DNA of 64,000 nt, taken from positions 186,001-250,000 of the forward strand of contig JABLXJ010000004.1 in the NCBI GenBank assembly GCA_013178125.1, read 5' to 3'. Of the stretch, positions 6,092 through 29,842 are shown piece by piece (within the stretch, counting starts at the first letter, position 1; every line of letters starts with the position of its first letter). This DNA is from Bacillota bacterium (GTDB taxonomy: Bacteria; Bacillota; SHA-98; Ch115; JABLXJ01). The notes below the pieces were generated by a model that was given only the letters and a program-made list of their open reading frames with translations, ran no database searches and was not told the DNA's origin. The position numbers and the translations under genes are program-made.

Positions 6092-7559
6092 AGCCACGGG
6101 GGGAACGCTTGCGGCGGGCGCGGTCGCAGCCCAGTTCTCCGGCATCTCTACGGATTCGCGAGGGGAAGTGGCGGGTAGGCTATTTATAGCTTTACAAGGG
6201 CCGCACTTTGACGGGCATGATTTTGTAAGTGCGGCCTTCGCAGGAGGGGCCGCCGGGGCGGTGGTTTCGAAGGATGTCGGCGTCGGGGATGTGGGCGCCG
6301 CCGGAGGCCAGGTCAGGGCCGTTATCAAGGTCCGCGATACGCTCCAGGCGCTCTGGGATATAGCAAGGCACATTAGGGCCAGGTTTGCTATACCCATAGT
6401 CGCCGTTACGGGCAGCACAGGCAAGACTACAACGAAGGACATGATCTACTGCCTCCTGAGGAGGCGTTTCAAGACCCTGAAGACCGAGGCCAATTATAAT
6501 AATGAGATCGGGCTCCCCCTCACGCTTGCCAGGCTCGACGGGACATTTGAGGCCGGGGTCGTAGAGCTCGGTATGAGGGCTCTGGGCGAGATAAGAGCCC
6601 TGGTCTCGATCGCGAGGCCCGACATAGGCGTTGTTACAAATGTCGGGGTTGCTCATATGGAGCTCCTCGGCTCCCGCGAAAACATCGCCAGGGCCAAGGC
6701 CGAGCTGGTGGAGGCGCTACCCCTGCACGGGGCCGCCGTGTTAAACGCCGACGACCCGTTCGTCATAGGGATGCGGGACAAGACCAGGGCGAGGGTTATA
6801 ACTTATGGCGTCGATCGCGATGCGGATCTCCAGGCGAGCGATATCCGGAGCCTGGGCGTGGATGGGGTAAGCGCTCGTTTCCACTACCGCGGCAGGCATC
6901 ATGAGGTCGTCATACCCATACCCGGGCGCCATAACGTCTACAATGCCCTGGCGGCGGCGGGGGCGGCCATCGCCCTCGACTTCGACTTGTCGACTATAGC
7001 GGATGGGCTTCGCGATTTTGTGCCGGCTCCCATGCGGATGCAGATTAGCAGGACGGACCAGGATGTGCTGGTAATCAACGATGCTTACAATGCGAACCCG
7101 GTTTCCGTTAAGTCCGCCCTCGAGACCCTCAGGGAGCTGGGAGGTGGGCGGCGTAAGATAGCGGTGCTCGGCGATATGCTGGAGCTTGGTGATCTCCGGG
7201 ATGAAGCTCACATGGAGGTGGGAAGGTGCGTCGTGGGCTTCGATGTTGATATCCTCATGACTGTTGGGGATTCCGCGAGGCTTATAGCTATCGAAGCCGG
7301 GCGGGCCGGGATGCAGGCCTCGAGGATCAGGCATTTTGATGAGGCTCTCGATGCGCTTCCAGCCCTCCTGGCCGGGGTCCGCCCGGGCGATGCTGTCCTA
7401 GTAAAGGGCTCGAGGGCTATGGGGATGGAGCGGCTGGCAGAAGCGCTGGTCAGTGGATCGGAATCGGAATCGGGACCGGGATTGGAATCGGGACTGGAAT
7501 CGGGGCCGGGGCCCGGGTCTGGGCCGGCGGCGTGGCCGGGCGCCAGGCGTTCGGACTAG
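6060..7559 (+). CDS. murF: UDP-N-acetylmuramoyl-tripeptide--D-alanyl-D-alanine ligase MurF
   Basis: Ligates D-Ala-D-Ala to the UDP-MurNAc tripeptide. The P-loop VTGSTGKTTTK has Lys122, and the Mur-ligase C-terminal domain contains VINDAYNANP and VLGDMLELG. ATG 6060 is preceded by GAGGAGAGGG and lies inside the end of murE. The last 35 residues are a Ser-Glu-Gly-Pro tail encoded by near-hexameric GGAATC/GGACCG repeats (7457-7527), which is not part of the enzyme fold. Confidence 0.96.
   Translation: MTVLSAREVIEATGGTLAAGAVAAQFSGISTDSRGEVAGRLFIALQGPHFDGHDFVSAAFAGGAAGAVVSKDVGVGDVGAAGGQVRAVIKVRDTLQALWDIARHIRARFAIPIVAVTGSTGKTTTKDMIYCLLRRRFKTLKTEANYNNEIGLPLTLARLDGTFEAGVVELGMRALGEIRALVSIARPDIGVVTNVGVAHMELLGSRENIARAKAELVEALPLHGAAVLNADDPFVIGMRDKTRARVITYGVDRDADLQASDIRSLGVDGVSARFHYRGRHHEVVIPIPGRHNVYNALAAAGAAIALDFDLSTIADGLRDFVPAPMRMQISRTDQDVLVINDAYNANPVSVKSALETLRELGGGRRKIAVLGDMLELGDLRDEAHMEVGRCVVGFDVDILMTVGDSARLIAIEAGRAGMQASRIRHFDEALDALPALLAGVRPGDAVLVKGSRAMGMERLAEALVSGSESESGPGLESGLESGPGPGSGPAAWPGARRSD
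7457..7527 (+). repeat. Purine-rich hexamer-like repeat at the murF 3' end
   Basis: Variants of GGATCG, GGAATC, GGACCG and GGATTG are tandemly arranged inside the murF reading frame and keep it open, giving an SESESGPGLESG-like tail. A shorter stretch of the same kind occurs in murE near 4736-4788. Confidence 0.7.
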
Positions 7560-22451: not shown

Positions 22452-22507
22452 TATAATTGGCCCAGGAGTCAAGAAGTTCTAAATCTGGTTTTTTGGAGGT
22501 GGCGCAA

Positions 22508-22669
22508 GTGAGGGAAAAGGTAGCTGGCGGCAGGCATATCAAGACAATTTACGCGGGCGTTGCAAAGGCCGACCTCGAGTCCCGGGGGTGCGGCGAATGC
22601 CAGACTTCGTGCCAGTCGGCCTGCAAGACATCCTGTACAGTCGGGAATCAAGTTTGCCTCAAGAAGTAG
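22508..22669 (+). CDS. scfA: SCIFF ribosomal peptide precursor (six cysteines in forty-five)
   Basis: A 53-aa peptide whose C-terminal half, CGECQTSCQSACKTSCTVG followed by NQVC, matches the near-invariant SCIFF core of Clostridia, with six cysteines. The leader contains HIKTI, also typical of the family. SCIFF peptides are substrates of a radical SAM maturase (ScfB/CteB) that installs a Cys-Thr thioether. GGAGGT lies seven bases before the GTG at 22508, which sets the start. Unusually, no maturase gene is next to it; the neighbours are a GH13 enzyme and a TPR protein. Confidence 0.9.
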   Translation: MREKVAGGRHIKTIYAGVAKADLESRGCGECQTSCQSACKTSCTVGNQVCLKK

Positions 22670-24448: not shown

Positions 24449-24542
24449 TTCAACTGCTGTCTGAAACTGAAAAAACTCGGTGAGCTTTTGCACACCGACT
24501 TAAAGTTAAGAATGCGCTGAAGCCCTGGGATTCGATTTGATG

Positions 24543-24590
24543 AGAGGTTCTTCTTTTTGCAGAGGGGCCTCTTATTTTTTTGTTTTTTAA
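24543..24590 (+). terminator. Rho-independent terminator after the HMA gene
   Basis: AGAGG at 24543-24547 pairs with CCTCT at 24568-24572, followed by a long T-rich run (TATTTTTTTGTTTTTT). It separates the HMA gene from the regulator unit. Confidence 0.65.
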
Positions 24591-24612: not shown

Positions 24613-24641
24613 TTGACAAGTGTCTTCTTTGGGGGTATCAT
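24613..24641 (+). promoter_or_regulatory. Sigma-A promoter of the response-regulator gene
   Basis: A perfect TTGACA at 24613-24618 and TATCAT at 24636-24641 with a 17-bp spacer. Transcription should begin near 24648, leaving a leader of about 35 nt before the preferred start codon at 24684. Confidence 0.75.
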
Positions 24642-24683
24642 CGAAGTATCATGGAAACGTTAACCAGGGGGGACGGCAGGGCC

Positions 24684-25364
24684 ATGCGGGTTTTAATACT
24701 CGATGATCATCCTGTTTTGAGGAAGGGGATCGCGGCCTTACTGGCTGAGCGAGATGATTTAGAGGTTGTAGGGGAGGCCGACAACATCTTCGACGCTGTG
24801 AGCAGGGCAAAGGATCTTAAAGCTGATACCATCTTAATTGACCTGCACCTCCGGGGGATTGATGGGGCAAGAGCCGCCCAGCTTTTACGCGATTTTCTTC
24901 CAGGAGTGAAGATCACCTTATTCGGTGACGCCACTTACAGTATTATGCCCGGCGATGGCGGGGCAGCCGGGGAACGCGGGTATGATGGCAAGCCGGGCCC
25001 ATCCGGAGAGGAAAGACTTGCAGGAGCTATTGATGCACCAACGGCGTCTGATGTAACATTTGGATCCCGGCATTACCATGATGAGCATGTCAGCTATGGT
25101 GGATATATCAGGGATATCAGCCTCACGCGCACTGAGGAGAAGGTAATGGAGCTTTTGGCCCGGGGATATCGCAATCAGGCCATAGCTGATGCCTTGTTTA
25201 TTAGCGTCAACACCGTGAAGACCCATGTCCATAGCATATTTCGCAAACTCAAGGTGAAGAGCAGGGCTGAAGCCATAAGCGTTGTGTTGAATTCGGGCGC
25301 AAGAAAGGGGATGGTTGACGGACGGTTTAACACTAACGTTTATTTAAATCACACCTTCAGGTAA
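24684..25364 (+). CDS. NarL/LuxR-family response regulator with truncated receiver domain
   Basis: A 226-aa regulator. The N-terminus is a receiver: acidic pair in LILDDHP, phosphoacceptor Asp in TILIDLHLRG. The receiver stops after ITLFGDATY: the usual alpha4-beta5-alpha5 portion, including the conserved GYLLK lysine, is replaced by a Gly-rich linker (PGDGGAAGERGYDGKPGP). The C-terminal LuxR HTH is intact (LTRTEEKVMELLARGYRNQA and SVNTVKTHVHSIFRKL). I prefer ATG 24684, preceded by AGGGGGGACGG, over ATG 24651. No histidine kinase is adjacent. It precedes and probably controls the peptide/radical SAM locus. Confidence 0.85.
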   Translation: MRVLILDDHPVLRKGIAALLAERDDLEVVGEADNIFDAVSRAKDLKADTILIDLHLRGIDGARAAQLLRDFLPGVKITLFGDATYSIMPGDGGAAGERGYDGKPGPSGEERLAGAIDAPTASDVTFGSRHYHDEHVSYGGYIRDISLTRTEEKVMELLARGYRNQAIADALFISVNTVKTHVHSIFRKLKVKSRAEAISVVLNSGARKGMVDGRFNTNVYLNHTFR

Positions 25365-25393
25365 TAGCAGGGTTATCCATAAATTGGTATAAT
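25365..25393 (+). promoter_or_regulatory. Extended -10 promoter of the small peptide gene
   Basis: TGG followed directly by a perfect TATAAT (25388-25393) forms an extended -10 element; no good -35 is seen. It gives the peptide gene a start independent of the upstream regulator gene. Confidence 0.55.
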
Positions 25394-25446
25394 CGAGTCG
25401 CAAGTGATGCTTCAAGCCTGTAATGATATCACAGGAGGTGAAGACG

Positions 25447-25548
25447 ATGTTTGGGAAGCTTGGAGGGCGGAAAGTGACAGTTAACATGGCTATTGACGGG
25501 TTCTGCGTATCCTTCCGTTGCTGGGGCCACCGCATAACGATCGGGTAG
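25447..25548 (+). CDS. Putative 33-residue RiPP precursor or signalling peptide
   Basis: A short gene preceded by one of the strongest ribosome binding sites in the window (ACAGGAGGTGAAGACG before ATG). The product begins MFGKLGGRKVTVNMAID and ends GFCVSFRCWGHRITIG. It is cationic, has alternating hydrophobic residues and two cysteines four residues apart (FCVSFRCW). I recognise no family. Its dedicated promoter, the downstream hairpin and the position before a radical SAM/SPASM enzyme, a CPBP protease and an ABC exporter make a modified secreted peptide the best inference. Confidence 0.6.
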   Translation: MFGKLGGRKVTVNMAIDGFCVSFRCWGHRITIG

Positions 25549-25576
25549 AGGGTAGGCTACCCATCAGGTGTGGGCA

Positions 25577-25606
25577 GTGGCGGGTGTTTTGAGCAGCGCC
25601 CGCCAT
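25577..25606 (+). promoter_or_regulatory. Stable intercistronic hairpin between peptide and radical SAM genes
   Basis: TGGCGGGTG at 25578-25586 pairs with CGCCCGCCA at 25597-25605 around a 10-nt loop. There is no T-run, so it is more likely an mRNA-stabilising or attenuating structure than a full terminator. It would favour high precursor-to-enzyme ratios. Confidence 0.5.
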
Positions 25607-25766
25607 CCGCCGATCCCCGGGCACAGGGTTGCCGGCGAAACAGCGTGCTGGTAAACTGGCATAAATCAAGAAACCTGCACTTGGCAGGGGTCTCAGTGCC
25701 TTCTCGCCGTATATTTTGGTTTATATCGTACCTATGAGGGATTGAAACGCTCAGGAGGGGAGCAAG

Positions 25767-27104
25767 TTGGATTGCGACATTCGCCTGGATGGGCGCTATC
25801 GCCTCGCCCCTGAGGCAAGAGTTCTTGAAAACGAGGCCGAACGGGTCCTGGTGAATCTCAATAACAGGGAATGGATCAAGGTGAGCCCTGAAGCCTTTTC
25901 ATTGATAGAAAACAGGGCCAACAATCCATTCAGGGAAATCGTGGACAGGGGAGCTCGCGAGCACCATGCCAGGCCTGCGGAGATATTCTCGCTATTTGAA
26001 TACCTGGTCGCGAGCGAGCTTATCAAGGACGTGAGGAGGAAGTCCCCCAGAAAGATATACCTCAATGTGACAGACAGGTGCAACCTGGCATGCCGGACGT
26101 GCTACTTTGGAGCCGCCTCCTGCACCCTTTCCGGCGATGATCCCATGTCCACTGCTGATATCCTAGGTGCCCTGGCTTCCATCGCGCCGCTCAAGCCCGA
26201 TAGCCTTGTCCTAAGCGGGGGGGAGCCTTTTATTCGCAAGGACGCGATCGAGATCATCGAAGCCGCGGCGCGCGCGGCGCGGTGTGTGACGGCGCTCACC
26301 AACGCCACGCTCATCAATCGTGAGATCGCGGGCGCCCTGGCGGCCACGCACGCGAAGGTCCAGGTCAGCATCGAAGGCCCCGTTGCGGATATCCACGACG
26401 CTATAAGAGGGAAGGGGAGCTTCGATCTAGCGATGAAGGGGGTCCGGCTTCTCCTTGAAAGCGGGGTATCGGATATAGAGCTGGTACCAACCCTTACCCG
26501 GCGAAATATAAGGCATGCCTGGGATGTTATCAAGCTTGCGGGGGACCTTGGCGTCGGGTATCACTTCAGCCTCTTCATGCCAGTCGGGAGGGGCCAGTGC
26601 AATCGGCGCGAGTTTGATCTATCTCCTGAAGAGCTGTGTCTCTGGTTTTGTGAAATGTTGAAGTACGAACGTCCCGATCCGGTTTCCTTCATGTCCGATC
26701 CGCGAGAATCCTGCGGCGCCGGGGACAGGGAGATAAGCGTAGGACCCGATGGGGAGGTTTACCCGTGTCCTCTGCTGCATTATCCCGAACTCTCCATGGG
26801 CAACGTCCTGCGCGAGGGGTTTGACGATATATGCTTGAGGACAGGGGGCATCGTCGCGAACGTTGATGAAAAGGAACAGTGTTCCACCTGCAATGTGCGC
26901 TATTTCTGCGGAGGGGGCTGTGCAGCCTATTCCTACTCCAAGAGGCGCGATTTCATCCTTCCCGATCCTTATTGTCTCTTTTACAAGAGGGTATTTTCAA
27001 CATTCGTCTGGGATTGGGTTGACGGGAGAAGCCATGTGGAGAACTGGGGCAGGGTGCTCGAGCGCATGGCCGGTGTGCGGGAGCGGCAGTGCGAGACTAT
27101 ATAA
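25767..27104 (+). CDS. Radical SAM/SPASM peptide-modifying enzyme with PqqD-like N-terminus
   Basis: A 445-aa enzyme. Residues 1-90 look like a PqqD/RRE peptide-recognition domain (VLVNLNNREWIKVSPEAFSLI). The radical SAM core has CxxxCxxC at Cys105, Cys109 and Cys112 (TDRCNLACRTCYFG) and SGGEPF. A C-terminal SPASM region has multiple cysteines for auxiliary clusters (ESCGAGDREISV, EVYPCPLL, EQCSTCNVRYFCGGGCAAY, DPYCLF). Such enzymes install thioethers, C-C bonds or epimerised residues on ribosomal peptides. Start is TTG 25767 after AGGAGGGGAG. The likely substrate is the peptide encoded at 25447; the SCIFF peptide is a less likely alternative. Confidence 0.87.
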   Translation: MDCDIRLDGRYRLAPEARVLENEAERVLVNLNNREWIKVSPEAFSLIENRANNPFREIVDRGAREHHARPAEIFSLFEYLVASELIKDVRRKSPRKIYLNVTDRCNLACRTCYFGAASCTLSGDDPMSTADILGALASIAPLKPDSLVLSGGEPFIRKDAIEIIEAAARAARCVTALTNATLINREIAGALAATHAKVQVSIEGPVADIHDAIRGKGSFDLAMKGVRLLLESGVSDIELVPTLTRRNIRHAWDVIKLAGDLGVGYHFSLFMPVGRGQCNRREFDLSPEELCLWFCEMLKYERPDPVSFMSDPRESCGAGDREISVGPDGEVYPCPLLHYPELSMGNVLREGFDDICLRTGGIVANVDEKEQCSTCNVRYFCGGGCAAYSYSKRRDFILPDPYCLFYKRVFSTFVWDWVDGRSHVENWGRVLERMAGVRERQCETI

Positions 27105-27215
27105 TCTATAATACGGGACCATACAATATATGAGCGTTACATAACATAATATGAGCATTACATGTGAGCATTACCGGTAGTATTAGTGGTACTACCAGTG
27201 AGTCGGGGGAGAAGT

Positions 27216-28046
27216 ATGCCTTTCTATGTTTTTGTCCTTGCCAGCATGATTTTCAAGGTTGGATTTCAGGAGTGGCGCCAGCATAACGATGAAATGGGTT
27301 ACATTGACCTGGGGGACGTGATTATAATTGGGATACTGGCCACCACGAGGCTGGTCGCCGGGGTGGATCCTGTTGAGTTTTACGGATTCCGCCTTGCGGA
27401 CCTGCGGAGCTGCCCGTGGGGTGCAATGGCCGGTATATGGGCGGCAGCCTTCGCACTGAATCGCGTTGTCCGCGCACGCGTGCCACGCGAACTGTTGCCG
27501 GACGGCATATTCCAGCTCCTCGGGCGATATGGCCTGTCTATGGTAGCAACCGCTGGGATACCCTTCGTCGCCACTCAGACGCTGTGGGAGGAGCTTCTTT
27601 TCCGCGGGGTGATCTTCAACAGTTGTATTTCACTACTGGGTGTAACGGGCGAGACTATGGCCTCGTGCATAACCATAGGTTTTAGGGATGCGAGGTTCGC
27701 CGCTGCCGCCTTTGCATCGAGCGCGATGTTTGGCCTGGCTCATTTCCTGCCGCTATATATAATCACTTCCGGCAGGATCACTCCCGGCAAAGGGCGACCT
27801 GGGTATGCGGCGGTGCCGGGCGGTCCGGGAAAGTCCTGCAGGGACCTCAGCCTCGCCAGGGCGTACGCCTTTGTAATGCCGTGTGTTTACGGGCTCATAT
27901 TCATAGAGTTGAATGCCAGGTCAGGGTCGCTCATGCCGGGCTGGGTGATGCATTTCGGGCTTAATTACGCGAGCCTGATCTGGAATAGAGTGTGGTTGGG
28001 GGGGCATGATTTATGGATGAAGGCGACGTTGAATTCCAGAGCGTGA
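27216..28046 (+). CDS. CPBP family intramembrane metalloprotease
   Basis: A 276-aa polytopic protein with the three CPBP/Abi motifs: EExxxR at E125-E126-R130 (EELLFRG), FxxxH in FGLAHF and the C-terminal HFGLNY. This family contains type II CAAX-prenyl-endopeptidase homologues and proteases involved in bacteriocin maturation or self-immunity. ATG 27216 follows GGGGGAGAAG. It overlaps the ABC ATPase gene by 34 nt, so the two are coupled. In this locus it is a candidate for leader removal or immunity. Confidence 0.85.
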   Translation: MPFYVFVLASMIFKVGFQEWRQHNDEMGYIDLGDVIIIGILATTRLVAGVDPVEFYGFRLADLRSCPWGAMAGIWAAAFALNRVVRARVPRELLPDGIFQLLGRYGLSMVATAGIPFVATQTLWEELLFRGVIFNSCISLLGVTGETMASCITIGFRDARFAAAAFASSAMFGLAHFLPLYIITSGRITPGKGRPGYAAVPGGPGKSCRDLSLARAYAFVMPCVYGLIFIELNARSGSLMPGWVMHFGLNYASLIWNRVWLGGHDLWMKATLNSRA

Positions 28047-28975
28047 CAAAGATATATTCCAGCCTCATGGGGCGCCCGGTTGCAACGGGGATCGAAAACA
28101 TCTCCTTCGTTGCGAGGCGTGGCGAGGTCTTGGCGATCCTGGGGCCAAATGGAGCAGGCAAGACCACGATCATCAAGATCATTACGGGTCTCCTGACGCC
28201 TACGTCGGGAGTTGTAAGGGTGGGGAGGCGTAGCGAGCCGAACGGGAGATATGTGAAGCCGCGAGGGCTCGGTGTTGTGCTGGGTGGATCGCGAAATCTT
28301 TACTGGAGGCTTACCGCCAGGGAGAATCTAGAGTATTTCGGCGCGCTGCGGAGGGCCGGCATCATGATGGAGATAGCGAGGCAGTCGGATGAGCTGCTCA
28401 GGCTCTTTGGCTTGTATGAGGCTCGCAACATGACGGTTGCGGACCTTTCTACAGGGTTGCGGCAGAGACTCTTTATCGCTGTTGCCCTTATGGGCCAGTC
28501 GGATATAGTGGTGTTCGATGAACCCACGATCGGGCTCGATGTTCGCTCCAGCACCGGCGTCGAGTGGTTGATCAAGGAGATATCGAGGGTGCGTGGGGCC
28601 ACGGTGATCCTCGCGACGCACCAGATGAAGCTGGCCCAGAACGTGTCGGACAGGGTCCTCATAATCAATAGAGGCAGGGCACTGCTCTGCGATACGGTGG
28701 GTAACTTGCGTCGCATCTTCAAGCGCGATGCCTTTGAGATCGTCGTGGATGGCGTGCTACCGGTTGAGGCTACAAGTCGCATCCAAGAGATCAAGGGGGT
28801 CAAAATTGCGGCAGAATGCGACGACCGGGGACGTTCGAAGATCCTTGCGAGCCTGGCGGACTCGAGGCTTCTATACCCGGTCCTCGATCTGTTGAGAGAG
28901 AACGGCTTGGGTGTGAGCTCAATCCAGCAGCGTGAGCCGGACCTGGAAGAGGTTTTCCTCCAGGTGACGGCCTGA
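28013..28975 (+). CDS. ABC transporter ATP-binding protein
   Basis: A 320-aa ATPase of the multidrug/antibiotic (ABC-2 partner) type. Walker A is GPNGAGKTT (Lys50), the signature is LSTGLRQRL, a variant of LSGGQ, and Walker B is IVVFDEPTIGLD, followed by the H-loop ATHQM. About 80 C-terminal residues form a DrrA-like accessory domain. The ATG lies inside the CPBP gene end, and the permease gene follows after 75 bp. Together they form an exporter for the locus product. Confidence 0.92.
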   Translation: MDEGDVEFQSVTKIYSSLMGRPVATGIENISFVARRGEVLAILGPNGAGKTTIIKIITGLLTPTSGVVRVGRRSEPNGRYVKPRGLGVVLGGSRNLYWRLTARENLEYFGALRRAGIMMEIARQSDELLRLFGLYEARNMTVADLSTGLRQRLFIAVALMGQSDIVVFDEPTIGLDVRSSTGVEWLIKEISRVRGATVILATHQMKLAQNVSDRVLIINRGRALLCDTVGNLRRIFKRDAFEIVVDGVLPVEATSRIQEIKGVKIAAECDDRGRSKILASLADSRLLYPVLDLLRENGLGVSSIQQREPDLEEVFLQVTA

Positions 28976-29050
28976 TGTGGATGTCAGCCCATCGCGCTCC
29001 AGTCCATCGCGTGCCAGTCCATACGATACACTGCTCCACTGGAGGTAGCG

Positions 29051-29842
29051 GTGTGGCGGAAAGGGTGGGAGTCTATGTTTCTCCTCATTGAATTCTGGGC
29101 GGAATTGAGGCGTGGGTTCAAGAGCTATATCCGCTATCCGCTTCAGGCCATCGGGGAAATCATCGCGCTTATACTGGCGTTTGCCTTCGTAGACAACTCT
29201 CAGGGCGGGGGATCGGCGGGGCGGGCAGTTGGCTTTGCAGCCCTCTTCATTGCGTTCATCGGGTTGCAGGCTGCAAATAAGGTGGTGAAGGATGAATCCG
29301 ACGCGGGGACCCTCGAGCAGCTCTACTTGGCTTGTTCCAGCCTCCCGAGGGTTATATTCCTGCGGACTCTGGCCGACACCTTGCGGCTGATGCCCGTCTT
29401 GCTCGGGGTCCTTGCAATCACCGAGCCTTCCATAGGGTCCAGGCTCCCATCCCGGATCGGCCCGGTCGTCCTCCTCTCTCTGCTCATGAATGTCGGGATG
29501 CTTGGGATAGGGTTTATCCTTGGGGCGATAGCCCTCGTCTTCAAGCGAATAGGTTTCCTCGCCAATCTGGCCAGCATCGCGCTCTTGCCGCTCGCGCTCG
29601 CCCCCGGCGATATGCCGGCAAGTGGACTGGCCGGGGATATGTTGGAGGCGATCCCATTCACCCAGGCCCTGAGCACCTTTAGAGCTCTTTTGGGGAATTC
29701 CAGCGGGGCCTGGAGTCGCCTGGTATCTTCCAGTGGGGCCCTGCTCCTGGTGGATTCCGCAATTTGCTTCATTATTGGTTTGATGGTATTTCGAGCGGCT
29801 GAGCGTATGGCGCGGGATAGAGGGCTCATCGGTAAATATTAG
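29051..29842 (+). CDS. ABC-2 type transporter permease
   Basis: A 263-aa membrane protein with about six hydrophobic segments (for example IGEIIALILAFAFV and GMLGIGFILGAIALVF) in the ABC-2 arrangement, lying directly after its ATPase. GGAGGT precedes the GTG at 29051. It is the last gene of the presumed peptide locus; the next gene, UPF0182, follows a 149-bp gap. Confidence 0.87.
   Translation: MWRKGWESMFLLIEFWAELRRGFKSYIRYPLQAIGEIIALILAFAFVDNSQGGGSAGRAVGFAALFIAFIGLQAANKVVKDESDAGTLEQLYLACSSLPRVIFLRTLADTLRLMPVLLGVLAITEPSIGSRLPSRIGPVVLLSLLMNVGMLGIGFILGAIALVFKRIGFLANLASIALLPLALAPGDMPASGLAGDMLEAIPFTQALSTFRALLGNSSGAWSRLVSSSGALLLVDSAICFIIGLMVFRAAERMARDRGLIGKY

Follow-up and report, generated by a model that had tools for sequence, protein, structure and literature searches.

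A gene order of peptide, radical S-adenosylmethionine (SAM) enzyme, membrane protease and two ATP-binding cassette (ABC) genes is known from the epipeptide locus yydFGHIJ/epeXEPAB of Bacillus subtilis (PMC7026026), and a second described system, SCIFF with its maturase ScfB/CteB (TIGR03973, TIGR03974), pairs a small precursor with an enzyme that joins a RiPP recognition element (RRE; RiPP, ribosomally synthesised and post-translationally modified peptide) to a radical SAM/SPASM core. For SCIFF, wide vertical conservation was argued to speak against an antimicrobial role, and a quorum-sensing role has been listed (PMC8326336). Two further chemistries are relevant here, namely the Cys23-Asn20 bond of the ranthipeptide NxxcA (PMC8326336) and the cyclopropylglycine that TvgB makes on a TVGG motif (PMC9062424). 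We analysed a stretch of 64,000 nucleotides (hereafter the window) from contig JABLXJ010000004.1 of a Bacillota bacterium, whose genome assembly amounts to 3.48 Mb in 54 contigs, and describe in it a 33-codon gene, MFGKLGGRKVTVNMAIDGFCVSFRCWGHRITIG, that lies upstream of a gene for a radical SAM/SPASM enzyme. We consider it likely that this enzyme acts on the 33-residue peptide, and that the two belong to a housekeeping RiPP system, so far uncharacterised, which is inherited vertically.

We found the peptide in 17/17 genomes of its own class (sequence search; full-length or near-full-length matches) and in 11/12 genomes of a second class (profile search), the exception being a genome that is 72% complete. 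Every member, in 28 genomes of two classes, is exactly 33 codons long, and a profile run against 379 phylum genomes gave true members at least 57.6 bits, while the best other match reached 19.4 bits. Nonsynonymous divergence (pN) is far below synonymous divergence (pS) by the Nei-Gojobori method, both over all pairs (pN 0.28 vs. pS 0.78; pN/pS 0.36) and between the window and its congener (0.06 vs. 0.72), a pattern which indicates that the gene is under purifying selection as a protein, its synonymous sites being near saturation. Because the gene is kept in 28 genomes, because the two groups of scores lie so far apart, and because pN is so far below pS, we regard it as conserved far beyond chance; the codon conservation in relatives that an earlier note on this DNA had expected of a real gene was thus found. 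Six residues (G7, C20, F23, W26, T31 and G33) are invariant across the 28 sequences, residue 32, between T31 and G33, is Ile, Val or Leu, and position 17 is Asp in 20, Asn in 7 and Ser in 1, so that a [DN]xxC motif is present in 27 of the 28. The peptide of the window has a second Cys, C25, which is confined to its genus; elsewhere this position is mostly Leu. Nearly all members start with ATG or GTG behind a purine-rich stretch that resembles a ribosome-binding site (RBS); one frame (L026, in G007:C115, peptide 6587-6685, - strand) starts with ATC, which may reflect either an unusual start codon or an error in the sequence.

No convincing peptide was found outside the two classes in 379-399 phylum genomes searched. 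Weak matches there (G255, G305, G374, G029) were dropped, being partial and, in the three loci checked, having no CxxxCxxC frame close by. The peptide had no significant counterpart in NCBIfam, Pfam, PHROGs or the PDB, and we found no description of it in the open-access literature, although an account elsewhere may have gone unnoticed. A gene this short would tend to escape annotation pipelines.

The gene lies in an unbroken run, in which a regulator, the mini-gene, a radical SAM/SPASM enzyme, a CPBP protease and an ABC pair all occupy the places that the earlier note had assigned to them:

24539..24582, + strand: terminator-like hairpin with a T-run, separating the cassette from a copper-chaperone-like gene upstream (candidate from a consensus scan)
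24613..24641, + strand: promoter-like site TTGACA-17-TATCAT, 11/12 matches, directly behind the terminator-like hairpin (candidate from a consensus scan)
24651..25364, + strand: LuxR-type regulator (GerE 2.3e-19, receiver 2.3e-12)
25447..25548, + strand: 33-codon peptide gene, presumed RiPP precursor, with AGGAGG ahead of its ATG
25549..25625, + strand: hairpin right after the peptide stop, by predicted folding; possible processing or attenuation site
25719..25748, + strand: solitary direct repeat of the CRISPR (clustered regularly interspaced short palindromic repeats) kind, immediately 5' of the radical SAM gene
25767..27104, + strand: radical SAM/SPASM enzyme (PF04055 2.4e-19, PF13186 6.5e-07), with a probable PqqD-like N-terminal domain at about residues 17-82
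27186..28046, + strand: CPBP (Rce1-like) intramembrane protease, with an alternative start ATG at 27219
28013..28975, + strand: ABC transporter ATPase (DrrA-like), overlapping the CPBP gene; accessory, missing from some relatives
29051..29842, + strand: ABC-2 type permease; accessory, missing from some relatives

The order of regulator, peptide and enzyme is identical in 28/28 loci, with a gene for a LuxR-type helix-turn-helix (HTH) protein upstream of the peptide and the radical SAM gene downstream, so that in all 28 a short encoded precursor is kept beside a modifying enzyme; the CPBP gene comes next in 26/26 loci whose contig extends far enough. In the phylum sample the enzyme ortholog and the peptide occur in the same 26 genomes, so that the refuting condition named in the earlier note, orthologous enzymes without any mini-gene, did not arise. 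These orthologs score at least 345 bits (the lowest is clipped by a contig end; the lowest intact one scores 472), and the next family scores 241 bits. This co-conservation, together with the lack of a library match to the peptide, gives good support to the proposal of a new precursor family that is accompanied by a membrane protease and a radical SAM maturase of its own. The ABC pair follows another pattern: 11/15 testable genomes from the class of the window have it, against 0/8 testable loci from the second class, in several of which a gene that, by eye, reads as Obg comes next. By this distribution the pair is accessory and not core. Within one genus (g5), four loci (L031-L034) have no ABC pair between the CPBP gene and the next conserved gene, and a fifth (L030) keeps it.

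Classes and families form separate groups in the enzyme tree, with the one exception of a family (f74) that is nested in another (f63), and descent is therefore mainly vertical. Plasmid, phage and viral collections held no relative of the cassette that we could find, and an origin from a mobile element was rejected on these two grounds.

The radical SAM motif CxxxCxxC of the enzyme (residues 105-112) and its SPASM cysteines (C316, C334, C372, C375, C381, C385 and C403) are invariant or nearly so, as expected of a peptide maturase of this kind. The earlier note had also read a PqqD-like domain at the N-terminus; Pfam gives no match to one there, but an AlphaFold model (mean predicted local distance difference test score, pLDDT, 85.7) has a domain of beta3-alpha3 order at about residues 17-82, which we read, from the predicted fold, as the PqqD-like recognition type. 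Profile alignments to CteB (positions 27-428) and SkfB (21-370) both begin inside this domain. In a structure search the best matches were CteB (the SCIFF maturase), SkfB, anSME, TigE and SuiB, all of them modifiers of peptides or proteins, with CteB and SkfB at ranks 1-4, TigE at rank 8 and EpeE/YydG from rank 31. The enzyme reaches the cut-off of no NCBIfam model: the best match is the streptosactin maturase StsB (NF045574; residues 21-396), with 148.8 bits where 625 are required, so that it is not a member of that family; the second best is the mycofactocin maturase (123.4 vs. 265), and the score for the SCIFF maturase is 72.6 vs. 425. A match to the prokaryotic viperins in PADLOC, limited to a portion of the radical SAM core, was set aside as ordinary superfamily likeness. 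One member of the class has a further radical SAM/SPASM frame (G016:C8:17805-18995), which scores 200 bits against the enzyme profile and may be a paralog.

Comparison with the two described systems places the locus near both and inside neither. The likeness to yydFGHIJ that the earlier note had drawn holds for the gene order in the window, where the five-gene cassette with its ABC pair is present; it does not hold further, as some members of the same class and the second class have no ABC pair, the LuxR-type regulator is core here, the peptide is 33 residues in all members, and the structures nearest to the enzyme are CteB and SkfB, EpeE/YydG ranking much lower. With SCIFF the new system shares a small precursor, an RRE-bearing radical SAM/SPASM enzyme with CteB as its best match, and the standing of a class-wide core gene. 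It differs in that a single Cys of the peptide is invariant, where SCIFF has six, in that the SCIFF precursor model (TIGR03973) does not match the peptide, and in that the enzyme stays far under the cut-off of the maturase model (TIGR03974).

The other two conserved genes bear on how such a product might be released and controlled. The LuxR-type regulator of the window consists of a truncated receiver, a Gly-rich linker and a GerE-type HTH. The HTH is strongly conserved, but many relatives retain only a vestige of the receiver or have lost it, so that control by phosphorylation is doubtful. An alignment of 21 relatives of the CPBP protein shows no change at E124, E125, R129, F171, H175, H245 or N249 (counted from the ATG at 27219), and the motifs EExxxR, FxxxH and HxxxN are kept; because the catalytic residues are invariant, the protease looks active as far as its sequence can tell. 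Finally, a hairpin behind the peptide stop was predicted in most of seven loci folded (z -0.6 to -4.2; -1.9 in the window) and might determine how much peptide is made relative to the enzyme.

From the conserved gene pair, the fixed length, the purifying selection, and the co-conserved regulator and CPBP gene, we infer a chemistry and a function as follows. The basic, Gly-rich N-terminal third of the peptide would be the leader and dock on the PqqD-like domain, and the enzyme would modify the C-terminal two thirds at or near Cys20, most likely by forming a thioether, which we favour because Cys20 is invariant and because the nearest relatives of the enzyme form thioethers. The favoured partner would be Asp/Asn17, three residues before the Cys; NxxcA has the same spacing, and here the likeness lies in spacing alone, and the bond at C20 is a prediction. 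The CPBP protease would then cut or free the peptide at the membrane, and the ABC pair, where present, may export the product or protect against it. The mature product would most likely act on the producer itself, as a signal or as an envelope or physiology factor, with the neighbouring LuxR regulator as the means of its read-out or control. We suppose that the product serves the producer and is not a weapon because nearly every member of the two classes has the cassette, and has it in one copy. A self-directed role, as a signal or otherwise, is accordingly the one we rate highest, and signalling is more likely than an antibacterial role. It has not been overlooked that several observations sit uneasily with this account: the core cassette is without a dedicated exporter, adjacency is the only link between regulator and product, a structure model of the peptide alone is an uncertain beta-hairpin (pLDDT 56.5), position 17 is Ser in one genome, which speaks against it as thioether partner, and F23, W26 and T31 could equally be modification sites.

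That last point leads to the best-surviving alternative, in which the same pair carries out another modification, be it cyclopropylglycine at Ile/Val32, a cross-link at Trp26 or Phe23, or epimerisation. The invariant T31-[IVL]-G33 recalls the TVGG motif of TvgB (PMC9062424), TigE is found at rank 8 in the structure search, and W26 and F23 are both invariant; on the other hand, the two solved enzymes nearest by profile and by structure form thioethers, and Cys20 is invariant. We therefore hold such a modification to be the less likely reading.

A secreted antimicrobial or cannibalism-type RiPP of epipeptide-like kind, with the ABC pair for immunity or export, is unlikely. Such a reading can call on the gene order shared with yydFGHIJ (PMC7026026), on the CPBP and ABC genes in the window, and on related loci of another family (f86) whose short ORFs (open reading frames) are diverse and one of which adjoins, as read by eye, a fragment like a C39-type transporter. 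It has to contend with a peptide that is near-universal, single-copy, vertically inherited and strongly conserved in two classes, with an ABC pair that is absent in 4/15 testable genomes of its own class and from every testable second-class locus, with an enzyme to which EpeE is not nearest, and with the silence of the plasmid, phage and viral collections. The antibacterial role that the earlier note had listed among its options is thus improbable, because the gene is single-copy, vertical and present in nearly all members of two classes, the same argument as was made for SCIFF (PMC8326336).

The f86 loci merit description in their own right. L121 (- strand) and L122 (777-3337) have the nearest enzymes outside the family (27% identity for L122). 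As in the new cassette, the enzyme gene is preceded by short frames that contain Cys and is followed by a CPBP gene; these loci differ in that the ORFs are 38-42 residues long, three in L122 (38, 38 and 42 residues), and unlike the 33-residue peptide, and in that no LuxR gene was seen in the available stretch. The fragment, which lies near the locus in L121, resembles the start of a C39-peptidase transporter, and the short ORFs, when scanned, gave no NCBIfam match. We regard these as another uncharacterised RiPP-like locus, which supports the plan of peptide, enzyme and CPBP protease as a wider theme.

Less probable still is a peptide-derived redox cofactor in the manner of pyrroloquinoline quinone (PQQ) or mycofactocin, with modified residues excised from the precursor. 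The precursors of cofactor pathways are similar in size, and the mycofactocin maturase model is the enzyme's second best NCBIfam match; yet its score is far under the cut-off of that model (TIGR03962), the conserved stretch of the peptide spans residues 7-33 and is not a residue pair, and the conserved cassette is without an oxidoreductase, a peptidase of the PqqF/MftE kind or a glycosyltransferase. That the short frame is a regulatory upstream ORF or attenuator, the enzyme acting on something else, we think very improbable: a hairpin does lie between frame and enzyme gene in most loci tested, but the amino-acid sequence and the exact length are kept over two classes with synonymous sites near saturation, and the gene downstream is of a peptide-modifying kind.

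Genes of the SCIFF system also occur near the cassette. The window holds a SCIFF ranthipeptide gene at 22457-22669 (75.8 bits; cut-off 50), whose own maturase is not adjacent; the SCIFF maturase of the window's genome is on a different contig (G000:C3:85693-87042). A full-score SCIFF maturase is present in 12/17 genomes of the class, the window's included, and on this ground we rejected the idea that the new enzyme replaces it. In the loci of one family (f38; L050-L052), the new cassette is preceded by SCIFF, the two being separated by a frame that resembles a maturase gene, and several genomes of the class have the SCIFF maturase at about 10-46 kb from the new cassette, or closer.

The CRISPR repeat at 25719-25748 (GTTTATATCGTACCTATGAGGGATTGAAAC) lies directly upstream of the RBS of the radical SAM gene and is the sole copy in the window's genome; the congener (G001) has 22 array copies with one mismatch. 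Rfam assigns the repeat to CRISPR-DR2 on the - strand (45 bits; cut-off 37), and there is a weak Cas6 match in the window's genome. Since the repeat is found at that place in the window's species only, it is not part of the core system; a cut by Cas6 could affect the enzyme mRNA, or the repeat could be the remnant of an array.

What the locus offers is a defined pair of enzyme and probable substrate with a precursor sequence that is new. Most known RiPPs are patchily distributed weapons, whereas one that nearly all members of two classes keep, in a single strongly conserved copy, suggests a basic role. The new peptide would join SCIFF as a modified peptide shared by whole classes, the purpose of which is still being asked. 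Tentatively, and with much less confidence than we place in the pairing of peptide and enzyme, we raise the possibility that this is a second core RiPP of the SCIFF kind, in which a fixed 33-residue peptide would be needed by the two classes for their own physiology, the adjacent LuxR regulator with its decayed receiver would sense or control it, and release by the intramembrane protease would be the regulated step.

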